Shown here piece after piece: positions 27,457 through 33,992 of a stretch of DNA of 64,000 bases (positions are counted from its first letter, which is position 1; each line of letters starts with the position of its first letter). Origin of the DNA: Micrococcales bacterium (GTDB lineage Bacteria > Actinomycetota > Actinomycetes > Actinomycetales > Cellulomonadaceae). The notes beneath the pieces are model-generated. The model did not search any database. It saw nothing but the letters and a program-made list of their open reading frames with translations, and had not been told where the DNA came from. Location of the stretch: NCBI GenBank assembly GCA_009785115.1, contig WQWY01000016.1:1-64000 (forward strand). The letters are read 5' to 3'. Position numbers and translations under genes: made by a program.

Positions 27457-28737
<1,281 letters not shown>

Positions 28738-28741
28738 GGCT

Positions 28742-28764
28742 CGAGCGGGGCCGGTCCCGGCTCG
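28742..28764. terminator. Hairpin after clpX
   Basis: CGAGC-G-GGG (28742-28750) pairs with CCC-G-GCTCG (28756-28764) around CCGGT with one internal mismatch. It begins five bases past the clpX stop. No T-run follows. Confidence 0.45.
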
Positions 28765-28778
28765 TCGGTCACATCTCC

Positions 28779-28784
28779 TAGGAT
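28779..28784 (+). promoter_or_regulatory. -10 element, leaderless chorismate mutase promoter
   Basis: TAGGAT ends six bases before the GTG start at 28791, so transcription should begin at or next to the start codon and the mRNA would be leaderless. No ribosome binding site is present, as expected. Confidence 0.65.
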
Positions 28785-28790
28785 CGAGTC

Positions 28791-29111
28791 GTGCCCGACA
28801 TCCCTGCCGACCTCGTGCGTCTTCGAGCCAGCATCGACAACATCGACGCCGCGCTGATCCACCTGCTCGCCGAGCGGTTCAAGTACACCCAGCAGGTCGG
28901 TCTCCTCAAGGTCCGCGAAGGTCTGCCCCCGGCCGACCTCGCACGAGAGTCCGACCAGGTCGCCCGCCTGCGCGACCTCGCCGACGCCTCGGGCCTCGAC
29001 CCGGAGTTCGCCGAGAAGTTCTTGGCCTTCCTGGTCGACGAGGTCATCCACCACCACACCCGATTGAGGCGAGAAGCGAACGAGCTTGCTCGATTCGACC
29101 GAGCCGATTGA
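28791..29111 (+). CDS. Chorismate mutase, AroQ type
   Basis: Converts chorismate to prephenate for Phe/Tyr synthesis. The 106-residue all-helical protein has LRASIDNIDAALIHLLAERF (helix 1 with the active-site Arg), QVGLLKVREGLPPADLARES and FLAFLVDEVIHHH. The last 16 codons and the TGA stop are supplied by the first copy of the 82-base tandem repeat (from 29055), so the tail LRREANELARFDRAD is repeat-encoded. The core fold ends before it, so function is probably unaffected. Confidence 0.88.
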   Translation: MPDIPADLVRLRASIDNIDAALIHLLAERFKYTQQVGLLKVREGLPPADLARESDQVARLRDLADASGLDPEFAEKFLAFLVDEVIHHHTRLRREANELARFDRAD

Positions 29112-29225
29112 GGGTGTTGACGAGCGCAGCGAGGAACACACCCGATTGAGGCGAGAGGCGAACGAGCTTGCTCGATTCGACCGAGCCGATTGAGGGTGTT
29201 GACGAGCGCAGCGAGGAACACACCC
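29055..29225. repeat. 82-base tandem repeat, two copies plus stub
   Basis: Copy 1 is 29055-29136 and copy 2 is 29137-29218, differing by one base (AGAAG versus AGAGG). A third start (CACACCC) is at 29219-29225. Each copy contains the near-palindrome CGAACGAGCTTGCTCGATTCG, given here as CGAAC-GAGC-TT-GCTC-GATTCG, two GATTGAGG blocks and a GAGCGCAGCGAGGAAC end. Copy 1 enters the 3' end of the chorismate mutase gene. A diverged copy lies inside valS (31558-31640, opposite strand). Confidence 0.9.
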
Positions 29226-29233
29226 AGCCAAGA

Positions 29234-29264
29234 CGTGGTGCGAGCGAGGCTCGCTCGCACCACG
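29234..29264. terminator. Bidirectional terminator, 15-base stem
   Basis: CGTGGTGCGAGCGAG (29234-29248) is perfectly complementary to 29250-29264, with only one unpaired base between the arms, so the real loop is formed by opening end pairs. It sits between the convergent chorismate mutase and acyl-CoA synthetase genes. It has no T-run, as is common in actinobacteria. Confidence 0.75.
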
Positions 29265-29284
29265 CTGACTGAGGCGGGGGGCGA

Positions 29285-31117
29285 TCAGCTCTCTGGTTCG
29301 GCCGGCTCGGGGCGGGTGTCGACGTAGAGGTTGTCGATCTCGGCGGCGAAGTCGCGCAGCACCAGGGCCCGCTTCACCTTCATCGAGGGCGTCAGGTAGC
29401 CGTTCGTCTCGGTGAAGTCGACGGGCAGCACCGCGATCTTGCGGATCGACTCGGCACGGGAGACCACCTTGTTGGCCCGGGCCACAGCGGCGTCCAGCGA
29501 CTGGAGCACTCTCGGGTGACGGGCGGCCACCGTGACGTCCATGGACGGCAGCCCGTGGATCTTCAGCCAGCCCGGCAGCATCTCGGGGTCGAGGGTGACC
29601 AGCGCTCCGATGAACGGACGCGCGTCGCCCACGACGACGACCTGGCCGACCAGGGGGTGACCGCGCAGCCTGTCCTCGAGCACCGCCGGGGCGACGTTCT
29701 TGCCCGCGGCGGTGACGATGATCTCCTTCTTGCGGCCGGTGATGCTCAGGTAGCCGTCGTCGTCCAGGCTGCCCAGGTCACCGGTGGCGAACCAGCCGTC
29801 GACCAGCACCTGCGCCGTGGCCTCGGCCTCGTTGCGGTAGCCGCGGAACACGTGCGGGCCCTTGACCCAGATCTGGTCCTCGTCGTCCACGCGCACCCAG
29901 GTGCCGGGGAAGGCCGGGCCGACGCTGCCGACCTTGGTCAGGCCCGGCAGGTTCACCGAGGCCGGTGCCATGGTCTCGGTCAGGCCGTAGCCCTCCATGA
30001 TGGTCACGCCGATGCCACGGAAGTAGTGCCCGAGACGCTCGCCCAGCGGGGCGCCGCCGGAGATGGCGTACTCCATCTGCCCGCCGAACGCCTGCCGCAC
30101 CTTGCGGTAGACCAGACGCTCCGCCAGACGGTGCGCCACGGTGAGCGAGGGCCTCGGGCCGCGAGGGGTGTCCAGGGCACGGGAGTAGGTGATCGCCACC
30201 TTGGCCGACCAGCGGAAGATCCGCAGGGAGAGCCCAGGGCCGGCCTTCTGCTCGGCGGAGTTGTAGACCTTCTCGAAGACTCGGGGCACGGCCAGGACGA
30301 ACGTCGGCTGGACGGCGGCGAGGTCTTCCAGCAGGTGCTTGGTGCTCGGGCTGTGAGACAGCACCGCACCCGCGGCGATCGTGACCATCTGGATGTACCG
30401 GGCGAAGACGTGAGCCAGCGGCAAGAACAGCAAGGTGCGCTTCTGCGGCGATCCTTGGAGCACGATCCGCAGGTTGGAGTGCACCGCGTTGAGGGCGTGG
30501 ACGACCAGGTTGCCGTGCGCGAGCTCGACACCCTTGGGTCGTCCGGTGGTGCCCGAGGTGTAGATGACCGTCGCGAGGGTGTCGGTGTCGGCCAGGCCGG
30601 AGCGTCGCGCTATCTCCTCGTCGGTGACCTGCGCGCCGCGCTCCGCCAGCGTGCCCACGGCGTCCTCGTCGATGACCAGCACCTCGTTCAGCCCGGGCAG
30701 GTCGTCGTGCACCTCGGCGACCGTGGCGGCGTGCGCGGCGGTCTCCGCGACGACCACACGCACGCCGGCGTCGGCGCAGATCCAGCGGACCTGCTCGGCC
30801 GAGGAGGTCTCGTAGATCGGCACCCCGACACCGCCGGCGGCCCAGATGGCGAAGTCCAGCAGCGTCCACTCGTACCGGGTGCGGCACATGATCGCGACCC
30901 GGTCGCCAGGGTCGATGCCCGCGGCGACCAGGCCCTTGGCGACCGCGGTGACCTCGTCGGCGAACTCCTGCCGGGTCACCGGGAGCCAGGTGCCACCGTC
31001 GGGGCGCAGCGCGAAGACGATGTCGGGCCCCTCGGCCAGCAGGTCGGCCAGCAGCCGGGGCGCCGACCAGGTCGGGTCGGAGGGGATGGGCGCGGGGCTG
31101 TGCGTCTCGTGCGTCAT
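29285..31117 (-). CDS. fadD: Long-chain fatty acid-CoA ligase (AMP-dependent)
   Basis: Activates fatty acids to acyl-CoA through an acyl-AMP. The 610-residue ANL-family protein has the AMP-binding P-loop YTSGTTGRPKGVEL (about 185-200), the EGYGLTETMAP acyl/adenine motif, FATGDLG with the ribose-binding Asp, and TGRKKEIIVTAAGKNVAP at the domain hinge. Length and motifs match the FadD15-like/long-chain group; the chain-length preference cannot be read. Its ATG overlaps the valS stop (ATGA), so it is translated as the second gene of a valS operon, an unusual pairing with no obvious pathway logic. Confidence 0.9.
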   Translation of the reverse strand: MTHETHSPAPIPSDPTWSAPRLLADLLAEGPDIVFALRPDGGTWLPVTRQEFADEVTAVAKGLVAAGIDPGDRVAIMCRTRYEWTLLDFAIWAAGGVGVPIYETSSAEQVRWICADAGVRVVVAETAAHAATVAEVHDDLPGLNEVLVIDEDAVGTLAERGAQVTDEEIARRSGLADTDTLATVIYTSGTTGRPKGVELAHGNLVVHALNAVHSNLRIVLQGSPQKRTLLFLPLAHVFARYIQMVTIAAGAVLSHSPSTKHLLEDLAAVQPTFVLAVPRVFEKVYNSAEQKAGPGLSLRIFRWSAKVAITYSRALDTPRGPRPSLTVAHRLAERLVYRKVRQAFGGQMEYAISGGAPLGERLGHYFRGIGVTIMEGYGLTETMAPASVNLPGLTKVGSVGPAFPGTWVRVDDEDQIWVKGPHVFRGYRNEAEATAQVLVDGWFATGDLGSLDDDGYLSITGRKKEIIVTAAGKNVAPAVLEDRLRGHPLVGQVVVVGDARPFIGALVTLDPEMLPGWLKIHGLPSMDVTVAARHPRVLQSLDAAVARANKVVSRAESIRKIAVLPVDFTETNGYLTPSMKVKRALVLRDFAAEIDNLYVDTRPEPAEPES

Positions 31118-33825
31118 GACGTGACCAGCACAGCGTCGTCGGCGACGGGCGCGGGCACGTCACCGGTGACCAGGTCGAGATCGCCGGTCACCCGGCCTGC
31201 CGCGCGCACGTCGGCCAGCGCGGCACGCACGCCTTCGGCGGCATCGGTGGGGATGGTCAGACGCACTGAGCTCACCTCGGTTCTCATGGACAGCTTTGCC
31301 TCAGACTTGACCTTGCGCAGCGCGGCGAGAGCCGCACCCGCCGAGACGACGATGCCAGGCGGGGCATCACCCGCGGCGGCTCGCAGCGGTGCCGCGTCCG
31401 GCCACGGCTGGCGGTGCACCGAGCCCTCGCGCCACCACGACCAGACCTCTTCGGTCGCGAACGGCAGCACCGGCGCGAACAGGCGCAGCATCACGTCGAG
31501 CGCCAGCGCGAGCGCTGTGCGGGCCGACTCCGCGCCCGCAGGGTTGATATCGGCCGCATGTTCCTCGCTACGCTCGTCAACGCCGTCAATCGGCTCGGAA
31601 GAACGAGCGAGCTCGCTCTTCCCTCGCCTCAATCCGCCGTATGCACGGTCCTTGACCAGCTCGAGGTAGTCGTCGCAGAACGTCCAGAAGAACGTCTCGG
31701 TCACCTCGAGGGCCCGGGTGTGGTCGTAGCTCTCCAGCGCGGCGGTCGCCTGGTCGACCACCTCGGCCAGCCCGGCCAGCATCGCACGGTCCAGCGGGAC
31801 GGTCACCGTGGCCGGGTCCAGCGAGACCGGAGCGTCAGGGGCGCCGAAGGAGAGCGCGAACTTGCTCGCGTTGAGGACCTTGATCGCCAGGCGGCGCCCG
31901 ATCTTCATCTGCCCGACCTCGAACGCCGCGTCGGTGCCGAGCTTCGCCGAAGCGGCCCAGTAGCGCACCGCGTCCGAGCCGTGCTCGGTGAGCAGCCCCA
32001 TCGGGGTGACCACGTTGCCCTTGGACTTCGACATCTTCTTGCGGTCCGGGTCCAAGATCCAGCCGCTGATCCCCGCGTGAGACCACGGCAGCGACCCGTG
32101 CTCCAGGTGGGAGCGCACCACGGTGGAGAACAGCCAGGTGCGGATGATGTCCTGCCCCTGGGGGCGCAGCGACATGGGGAACGTCTTGGTGAACAGCGCG
32201 GGGTCGTCCCGCCAGCCGCAGGCGATCTGCGGGGTCAGCGAGCTCGTGGCCCAGGTGTCCATGATGTCGGAGTCACCGACGAAGCCCCCGGGCACCCCGC
32301 GCTGGTCGGCGGCGTACCCCTCGGGCACGTCAGAGGACGGGTCCACCGGCAGCTGCTCCTCGGTCGGGACCAGCGGGGTGTCGTACAGCGGCTCACCGGC
32401 GGCGTCGAGCGCGTACCACACCGGGAACGGCACGCCGAAGAACCGCTGCCGGGAGATCAGCCAGTCACCGTTGAGGCCACCCACCCAGTTCTCGTACCGC
32501 ACCCGCATGAACCCGGGGTGGAACTCGAGCTCTTCGGCCCGGGCGAGCAGCGCGGCCCGCAGGTCCTCGTCGCGCCCGCCGTTGCGGATGTACCACTGAC
32601 GGCTCGAGACGATCTCGAGGGGCTTGTCGCCCTTCTCGTAGAAGTTCGCCTTGCGCATGGTCGGCGTCGGCTCGCCGTCCAGATCACCGGCGGTGCGCAG
32701 CGCCGCGACGACGGCCTCACGGGCGGAGAACGTCGTCTTGCCCGCCAGCTCGGCGTACACGGCCGCACCGTCGCCGGTCAGCCACTCGGGGGTGGTGCGC
32801 TCCAGGCGCCCGTCACGGCCCACCACGGTGCGGTTGGGCAGCCGCAGCTCACGCCACCACTGCACGTCGGTGAGGTCACCGAAGGTGCAGCACATCGCGA
32901 TGCCCGCACCCTTGTCCGGCTCGGCGGCCGGGTGGGCGAGCACCGGGATCTCGACGTCGAACAGCGGGCTGCGCACCGTCGTGCCGAACAGCGGCTGGTA
33001 CCGCTCGTCGTCCGGGTGGGCGATCAGAGCCACGCAGGCGGGCAGCAGCTCGGGTCTCGTGGTCTCGATGTGGACCGGACCGCCCTCGCCGTGGAACGCG
33101 ACCTTGTAGAAGTGGCCGGGGTAGTCGCGGGCCTCGAGCTCGGCCTGCGCGACAGCCGTCTGGAACGTCACGTCCCACAGCCCTGGGGCGAGCTGCTGGT
33201 ACGCCTCGCCACGGGCCAGGTTGCGCAAGAACGCCTGCTGGGCGACGGCGCGGGCGCTGTCACCGATGGTCTGGTAGGTGCGCGACCAGTCCACCGACAG
33301 GCCCAGGTAGCGCCACAGGCTCTCGAACTGCTGCTCGTCCTGAGCCGAGAGCCGCTCGCACAGCTCGATGAAGTTCGGGCGAGACACCGGCACCTGGTCG
33401 GCGGGCTTGACCGCCTTGCCGTCGGTGCCCTCGTGCGGGGGCACGAACCCTGGCACGTACGGCAGCGTCGGGTCGCACCGCACCCCGTAGTAGTTCTGCA
33501 CCCGCCGCTCGGTCGGCAGGCCGTTGTCGTCCCACCCCATGGGGTAGAACACCTCGGCGCCGCGCATCCGCCGGTACCGGGCCACCACGTCGGTGTGCGT
33601 GTAGCTGAACACGTGCCCCACGTGCAGCGAGCCAGACACGGTCGGCGGCGGGGTGTCGATCGAGTAGATGCTCTCGGCCGGTGCGTCCGCGTCGAACCGG
33701 TACGTCCCGTCGGTCTCCCAGGTGGCGTCCCACCGCTCCTCGAGCCCGTCCAGCCCTACCTTCTCCGGTACCTGACGCGACAGGGTGGTCGGCGCGGTCC
33801 CGGACGGTTCGGTGCGTGGGCTCAT
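31114..33825 (-). CDS. valS: Valyl-tRNA synthetase with repeat-derived insertion
   Basis: Class I enzyme that charges tRNA-Val. The 903 residues contain the HIGH-type motif SGSLHVGHVF, an editing (CP1) domain with the THETTRPE-like HIETTRPELLPAC, and KMSKSKGNV (about 596-604), then the anticodon-binding domain. At about residues 729-757 the sequence LRRGKSELARSSEP-IDGVDERSEEH interrupts the expected DRAYG...SARTALALALD junction. This stretch is encoded by a diverged copy of the 82-base repeat at 29055. The frame stays open through it. ATG at 33823-33825 with AAGGA upstream is preferred over a start 11 codons earlier. Confidence 0.95.
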   Translation of the reverse strand: MSPRTEPSGTAPTTLSRQVPEKVGLDGLEERWDATWETDGTYRFDADAPAESIYSIDTPPPTVSGSLHVGHVFSYTHTDVVARYRRMRGAEVFYPMGWDDNGLPTERRVQNYYGVRCDPTLPYVPGFVPPHEGTDGKAVKPADQVPVSRPNFIELCERLSAQDEQQFESLWRYLGLSVDWSRTYQTIGDSARAVAQQAFLRNLARGEAYQQLAPGLWDVTFQTAVAQAELEARDYPGHFYKVAFHGEGGPVHIETTRPELLPACVALIAHPDDERYQPLFGTTVRSPLFDVEIPVLAHPAAEPDKGAGIAMCCTFGDLTDVQWWRELRLPNRTVVGRDGRLERTTPEWLTGDGAAVYAELAGKTTFSAREAVVAALRTAGDLDGEPTPTMRKANFYEKGDKPLEIVSSRQWYIRNGGRDEDLRAALLARAEELEFHPGFMRVRYENWVGGLNGDWLISRQRFFGVPFPVWYALDAAGEPLYDTPLVPTEEQLPVDPSSDVPEGYAADQRGVPGGFVGDSDIMDTWATSSLTPQIACGWRDDPALFTKTFPMSLRPQGQDIIRTWLFSTVVRSHLEHGSLPWSHAGISGWILDPDRKKMSKSKGNVVTPMGLLTEHGSDAVRYWAASAKLGTDAAFEVGQMKIGRRLAIKVLNASKFALSFGAPDAPVSLDPATVTVPLDRAMLAGLAEVVDQATAALESYDHTRALEVTETFFWTFCDDYLELVKDRAYGGLRRGKSELARSSEPIDGVDERSEEHAADINPAGAESARTALALALDVMLRLFAPVLPFATEEVWSWWREGSVHRQPWPDAAPLRAAAGDAPPGIVVSAGAALAALRKVKSEAKLSMRTEVSSVRLTIPTDAAEGVRAALADVRAAGRVTGDLDLVTGDVPAPVADDAVLVTS
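31558..31640 (-). repeat. Diverged repeat copy inside valS coding sequence
   Basis: Read on the minus strand this segment aligns over about 73 bases with the 82-base repeats at 29055-29218, at roughly 80 percent by eye. It shares CGATT/GATTGAGGCGAG, GAGCCGATTGA, GTTGACGAGCG and AGCGAGGAACA blocks, and has a central palindrome AGCGAGCTCGCT. It is one base shorter than the tandem copies, which removes the in-frame TGA that ends chorismate mutase and keeps valS open. Confidence 0.8.
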
Positions 33826-33992
33826 GGCCCCACATCCTTCCAGAACCCCAGGGGGCACCGCCCACGATCATCGACAAGATGGACCTCGACCGCTGGTGGT
33901 ATTCCGCAGTCCGGCCCCCGTGGCCGACGAGGTTCCCTGTGCCCGCTGGTGGCCAGCGGCAGGGCCGAGATGTCGGTGCGGCGGGGCCTGCC

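Follow-up and report, generated by a model that had tools for sequence, protein, structure and literature searches.

A short palindromic repeat carried in frame within valS and other genes of an actinobacterial genome

The window analyzed here, a stretch of 64,000 nucleotides from contig WQWY01000016.1 of a Micrococcales bacterium (Cellulomonadaceae), is contig C16 of a 2.48 Mb draft genome (G000) of 39 contigs that is 99.46% complete; genome size is 3.3-4.9 Mb in the 35 examined genomes of its genus. It encodes valS, the gene for valine--tRNA ligase (31117..33858, minus strand, 914 amino acids from the first listed start), whose product matches the NCBIfam models NF000540 (alt_ValS, 1454 bits) and NF009687 (1091 bits), each above its cut-off. 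Inside this gene lies an 81-bp copy of a repeated element (31560..31640, minus strand), which is read in the sense direction and in frame and adds the residues GGLRRGKSELARSSEPIDGVDERSEEH to the protein. A sequence-only reading of this DNA had described the segment as a diverged copy of a tandem repeat about 2.4 kb away on the opposite strand, and BLAST bears this out (84% identity to the tandem unit over query positions 7-83, E=3.4e-17). A covariance model of the family (R1), trained on 12 copies from this genome including the one in valS, gives it 100.4 bits (E=1.2e-22); the BLAST match is independent of that training. The open reading frame confirms that valS stays open through the copy. 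The two tandem copies (29056..29137 and 29138..29219, both plus strand) are 82 bp long and carry two stop codons each in the valS frame, whereas the valS copy is one base shorter and has none, as the same reading had noted.

The inserted residues are absent from all 29 aligned relatives. Between the conserved motifs DYLELVK and SARxAL, the ValS segment measures 54 residues in G000 and 24-31 residues in these relatives. The relative most similar at the site (L047, DRAYAADADPAGAASARTAL) has a 27-residue segment, giving a net gain in G000 of 27 residues, or 81 bp; the insertion proposed earlier therefore stands, with 27 rather than about 28 residues as the best count. On the DNA, the net insertion corresponds to 31558-31638 or, shifted by two bases, to 31560-31640, and the two placements are indistinguishable. 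In genome G004, which looks like the nearest relative by several other proteins, the ValS regions on either side join directly and the segment is missing. Aligned with the Thermus ValRS (1gax), the first part of the protein runs to residue 658 and the alignment picks up again at 662, which would place the insertion in a short turn of the anticodon-binding region; this placement is only approximate, because the second match is not significant.

The element belongs to a family with at least 16 copies in G000 at E<1e-8 and at least 23 at E<=0.01 (BLAST and covariance model), found on both strands, within and between genes; all copy numbers are lower bounds, as up to 31, 150, or 15 candidates were scored per genome. 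The consensus consists of ACACCCGATTGAGGCGAG, an inner hairpin, and CGAGCCGATTGAGGGTGTTGACGAGCGYAGCGAGGAAC. Over about 81 bp, the predicted structure nests an outer stem (ACACCC with GGGTGT), a short middle stem, and the inner hairpin, followed outside the stem by a conserved 3' tail resembling GTTGACGAGCGNAGCGAGGAAC. The motif GACG (complement CGTC) stands one base beyond the outer stem. Compensatory changes were found at nine of 20 pairs in 12 G000 copies. Across 64 copies from eight genomes, in an alignment to the covariance model that is biased towards it, all 20 pairs show double changes, and 92.4% of cells are paired. Double-change cells number 271 compared with 79 after shuffling, and the covariation score is 0.62 compared with 0.20 for shuffled and at most 0.07 for slid alignments. 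The two arms thus change together, which could reflect either selection on the hairpin or template-switch correction of palindromes. Individual copies do not fold with exceptional stability (z of -1.0 to -1.8 for the three window copies on the element strand). Identity with a known RNA family was rejected, as Rfam gave no match in window positions 28700-31800 (best E 3.5, far below the gathering score); on seven G135 loci, Rfam detected tRNAs only.

Ten of the 16 strong G000 copies lie in frame inside nine unrelated protein genes, essential genes among them. Six hosts carry the element in the sense orientation (valS, uvrC, the dnaB intein, a DUF5926 protein, an ABC-F-type ATPase, and an ABC ATPase) and three in antisense (an MrfA-like helicase, a DUF1015 protein, and a Nudix/NrtR regulator with two tandem copies). 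To judge coding status, we used open frames, GC content at each codon position and, in most G000 hosts, Pfam. The remaining strong copies comprise one that forms the C-terminus of a chorismate mutase and five that are intergenic, one of which provides the stop codon of the preceding gene. In alignments with relatives, the sites are cleanly empty for ValS and four other hosts. Exactly 27 residues are missing from the helicase in nine of nine relatives, 25 residues from the DUF5926 protein in nine of nine, and the DnaB intein insertion is missing in four of four (27 residues in three of them); empty sites were also found for the Nudix regulator (2/2) and the DUF1015 protein (1/1). UvrC (9/9) and the ABC-F protein (6/6) have no insertion in relatives either, yet both linkers vary in length. 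Closely similar element peptides occur in UvrC, the DnaB intein, the DUF5926 protein, and an ABC-F protein. The DnaB copy (L135:2492-2572, corresponding to G000:C18:31191-31271) lies within the intein just before the LAGLIDADG match, so that a selfish-looking repeat is nested in an intein, one selfish element inside another.

The chorismate mutase gene (28791..29111, plus strand; PF01817 at residues 11-88) ends at 29111 within the first tandem copy, the start of which encodes the C-terminus of the protein (TRLRREANELARFDRAD) and supplies its stop codon. This C-terminus is similar in G004 and different in G008 (two of nine loci gave a match). The second tandem copy is intergenic; after it, at 29220-29229, a third copy begins (ACACCC) and the sequence then diverges.

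The frame and orientation of the insertions were compared using 51 of the 64 copies, with 13 weak or partial copies left out: 15 in-gene copies, 31 intergenic copies (including one associated with a tRNA gene), and five that are terminal or unclear. Length is divisible by three in 14 of 15 in-gene copies versus 13 of 31 intergenic ones, and the sense frame is open in 15 of 15 versus 9 of 31. These two tests are partly circular, because in-gene status requires that the gene stay open, and we therefore relied on the comparison of sense with antisense. Among the 31 intergenic copies, antisense frames are open far more often than sense frames, so only 20% of insertions would be expected in sense from open frames alone (an expectation based on these 31 copies, 19 of them from G135). 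The observed proportion is 11 of 15 (p 1.2e-5), 10 of 13 when independent events are counted (p 1.6e-5), and 6 of 9 in G000 alone (p=0.02). A single reading frame is common to all 11 scored sense copies, which come from five genomes; in 10 of them, a TAC or CAC codon either stands before the element or is completed by it. Of 27 residues, 12 are charged in each of three sense peptides, whose GRAVY values run from -1.28 to -1.65, while two antisense peptides have 6 of 27 and 4 of 28 charged residues. A simple reading would be that the sense peptide is the best-tolerated version.

Outside G000, the family is patchily distributed across the order. A family survey gave matches at E<=0.01 in 34 of 150 genomes, mostly one weak hit each, and such single hits (E 1e-4 to 1e-2) are not counted as copies. 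G000 has several copies, as do small genomes of the genus g31 (at least 27 in G135, 15 in G176, 9 in G171, 4 in G166, and 3 in G161); a closer search raised G135 to at least 32 and found at least five in G004. In a survey of the order, eight of 297 genomes, from five families, matched at E<=1e-6. An exact-pattern scan of named genomes, from which the genome's own record was possibly excluded, returned seven loci, all in the metagenome-assembled genome Cellulomonadaceae bacterium Co333_bin51. With the tandem unit as blastn query (E 1e-5), no match was found in 50,697 phage and 72,556 plasmid records, and carriage by phages or plasmids was rejected.

In-gene copies are also found in these genomes. 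G135 and G171 share a copy at the identical site of a class I synthetase (by Pfam) that we take from its sequence to be IleS-like, and insertions can therefore be inherited. Other hosts are a G161 protein, presumably beta-mannosidase-like, an unnamed G171 protein, and a G004 regulator that we assume from its sequence to be WYL-like. In G305 (C215:2938-3180; L244, L250), three head-to-tail 81-bp copies form one open reading frame at a contig end, with a weak coding signal and 27-residue units that each end in VDERSEEH. One G135 copy (L138:2470-2553, contig C45) overlaps a tRNA-Arg(CCG) gene at its 5' acceptor end; this gene is the second in a tandem pair whose first member is intact. Thirteen of the 24 G135 copies laid out (L136-L149) have longer flanks in common, with GGTTTCG or similar on the left and ACCGTCG or ACCGACG, a variable stretch, and GGCTCAAC on the right; the element therefore probably has a longer, compound form in that genome. 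Copies at L150:2500-2692 and L151:2465-8547, also in G135, are found within or next to a non-coding repeat (CTGAGGGAGYCGGAAAGATA) for which no Rfam family reaches the gathering score.

Of the in-gene copies starting with AC, 13 of 14 have a pyrimidine in front, and the clean empty sites of the helicase and DUF5926 genes show no duplication past two or three ambiguous bases. The usual outer arms are ACACC and GGTGT, and the copies in ValS, IleS, and the mannosidase differ from this pattern. The IleS 5' arm, TACGCC, is host sequence found in four of four insertion-free relatives, and 16 of the 29 ValS relatives have TACGGCG, the ValS 5' arm. The ValS 3' arm, CGGCGT, exactly complements the ACGCCG of four relatives (L047 and L055-L057); these have TACGCCG, and their ValS protein is the most like that of G000 at the site. 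The codons to the right of the ValS insertion (GCG GCC) would point to TACGCGG instead, and the ValS outer arms pair at five of six positions. The mannosidase copy has its flank repeated on either side. In all three cases, the 3' arm of the element pairs wholly or nearly with the 5' arm, while the ACACC-armed copies in the helicase and DUF5926 genes show no fit to host sequence. It is conceivable, although unlikely, that the outer stem is fitted to the target, with insertion through base pairing between element and target, or with the 3' arm synthesized on the target, by machinery other than a recognized Y1 enzyme. Template-switch correction after insertion is the ordinary alternative for the arm-host fit, and we treat the fit in these three in-gene copies as a lead on targeting.

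Taken as a whole, the valS segment is very probably a copy of a small, non-autonomous, mobile palindromic element that is tolerated as an in-frame protein insertion. The dispersed copies, together with empty sites specific to lineages, argue for mobility, and the insertions seem to be tolerated rather than to benefit the host proteins. Such an element would insert in either orientation, within or between genes, often directly after a pyrimidine and AC. At close to 27 codons, and with one sense frame free of stops in the in-gene copies, it would encode a charged, hydrophilic peptide, and owing to these properties in-frame insertions at tolerant loops and linkers may escape elimination and persist in the protein. 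Several observations weigh against this interpretation. Folding of the valS copy exceeds that of shuffled sequence only slightly (z -1.24), the covariation could also have come from template-switch correction of palindromes, and the open frame of the sense copies is in part true by the definition of an in-gene copy. For the ABC ATPase copy, no empty site could be interpreted. The pyrimidine is present before only 29 of all 46 AC-starting copies (in G135 the base is mostly G), and, unlike the clean empty sites, the copies in IleS and the mannosidase have direct repeats on their flanks (about 10 and 8 bp), so that the ends given for the element are provisional. No mobilizing enzyme was found either: the Y1_Tnp domain is absent from five of six genomes (G000, G135, G171, G176, and G008, the first four of them copy-rich), the one Y1_Tnp protein of G004 is on a contig without any of the listed copies, and the TnpB C-terminal domain is absent from seven of seven genomes, G000 included. 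With both domains absent, IS200/IS605 proteins were rejected for G000. The G004 protein is Y1/RAYT-like, with an open frame of 311 amino acids (L226, G004:C48:3559-3891).

A more specific form of the proposed mobile element is a REP-type repeat moved by a RAYT or another IS200/IS605-type Y1 transposase that has since been lost. In single-strand transposition by Y1 enzymes, a short AC-containing target precedes the insertion and no long duplication is made, which agrees with the pyrimidine-AC start of in-gene copies, the clean sites, and the hairpin structure; G004 moreover encodes a Y1 protein. Against this, no Y1 match was obtained in the nearly complete G000 or in G135, the genome with the most listed copies, the pyrimidine is present in only 29 of 46 when all copies are counted, and the consensus lacks the GTAG tag, which is given as the mark of RAYT-linked REPs (PMC3733652). 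We consider this form possible but somewhat doubtful. That the copies are exapted rather than selfish, with the hairpin acting as an RNA (a terminator or stability element) or the peptide aiding the protein, appears quite unlikely: every stem covaries strongly, the IleS insertion is common to two genomes, and the G305 frame repeats 27-residue units, though with a weak coding signal, but the hosts are unrelated, relatives manage without the insertion, Rfam has no match, and the folding of the valS copy is unremarkable. It is very improbable that the 27 residues of ValS form a loop, either ancestral or expanded by convergence, whose likeness to the repeat is incidental. The loop does vary in length among relatives, but its DNA is too similar to the tandem unit, and its peptide recurs in closely similar form in UvrC, the DnaB intein, the DUF5926 protein, and an ABC-F protein; an ancestral protein segment was rejected because none of the 29 relatives has the residues. 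An assembly or binning artefact, for which the draft state of the genome in 39 contigs might speak, has a negligible chance of being the explanation, as each copy has its own in-frame site and its own divergence and the same family is found in other genomes.

Palindromes inserted in frame into housekeeping proteins are known chiefly from Rickettsia and Wolbachia; further cases include Methanocaldococcus, enteric repeats, and REPs within the genes of various bacteria. Among the papers listed in our searches of the open-access literature, to which subscription papers mostly do not belong, none describes this family or in-frame palindromic insertions in Actinobacteria, in agreement with the earlier statement that none was known in the lineage. 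The present system belongs to high-GC Actinobacteria and has ten in-gene copies in one genome, one of them inside an intein. Genes for tRNA synthetases are hit in two genera (ValS in G000 and the IleS-like protein in g31). With such a system, one could test which enzyme moves these elements and whether the peptides they add are no more than tolerated, and the relatives with empty sites are natural controls already at hand.

Several described repeat classes share features with this family. Bacterial MITEs with coding capacity (ERIC, Correia, and YPAL) are likewise small non-autonomous repeats able to fuse in frame with genes, most of them having terminal inverted repeats and target-site duplications (PMC2229807). 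The present element does not end in inverted repeats, which places the family outside the classical MITEs; duplication at the clean sites amounts to at most the two or three ambiguous bases, although the longer direct repeats at IleS and the mannosidase may reflect some target-site duplication. PARCEL repeats (palindromic amphipathic repeat coding elements) also combine palindromic DNA, a unit of similar length (25 residues), and a patchy distribution (PMC2996958). They are tandem amphipathic repeats in open reading frames without assigned function, often membrane-targeted (PMC2996958), whereas the insertions here are mostly single, hydrophilic, and in conserved proteins, with the G305 tandem frame as the nearest approach. 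REPs of the GTAG and CGTC types are dispersed palindromes, some of them within replication and repair genes, and CGTC families seem to lack a dedicated transposase (PMC3733652); they were reported there from five phyla, Actinobacteria not being among those named. The GACG beside our outer stem recalls them. REPs measure 20-40 bp, and those of the CGTC type have stems of 8-9 bp and occur mostly as head-to-head dimers (PMC3733652), while the present element is about 81 bp long, has nested stems, and forms head-to-tail tandems. CGTC REPs are defined by A-T at the first two stem pairs, a CGTC tag at one end, and a CCA-like tail (PMC3733652). Here 56 of 63 rows of the alignment have C-G as the second outer-stem pair, and GACG lies one base past the stem, which together with the length sets the family apart from CGTC REPs; among six genomes, no repeat-flanked Y1 gene of the kind that makes up a REPtron (a REP with its RAYT) was found.

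The closest likeness is to the Rickettsia palindromic elements (RPEs) that the sequence-only reading had named. RPEs are described as short hairpin-forming repeats, present in and between genes and in frame in housekeeping genes (PMC10969869, PMC2229807, PMC3767692). They also enter RNA genes, and Rickettsia japonica lists one in excinuclease subunit C (PMC3767692). Coding palindromes are likewise cited for Wolbachia, Methanocaldococcus, and enteric repeats (PMC2229807, PMC2996958). RPEs measure about 100-150 bp and belong to Rickettsia, whereas the present element is about 81 bp long, belongs to another phylum, and carries a conserved 3' tail outside its stem. With RPEs and the similar repeats of Wolbachia, it shares hairpin formation, dispersal, and in-frame residence in unrelated protein genes. 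The resemblance that had been proposed thus holds at the level of behavior, and this comparison by description supports an actinobacterial system that appears to work like the RPEs.

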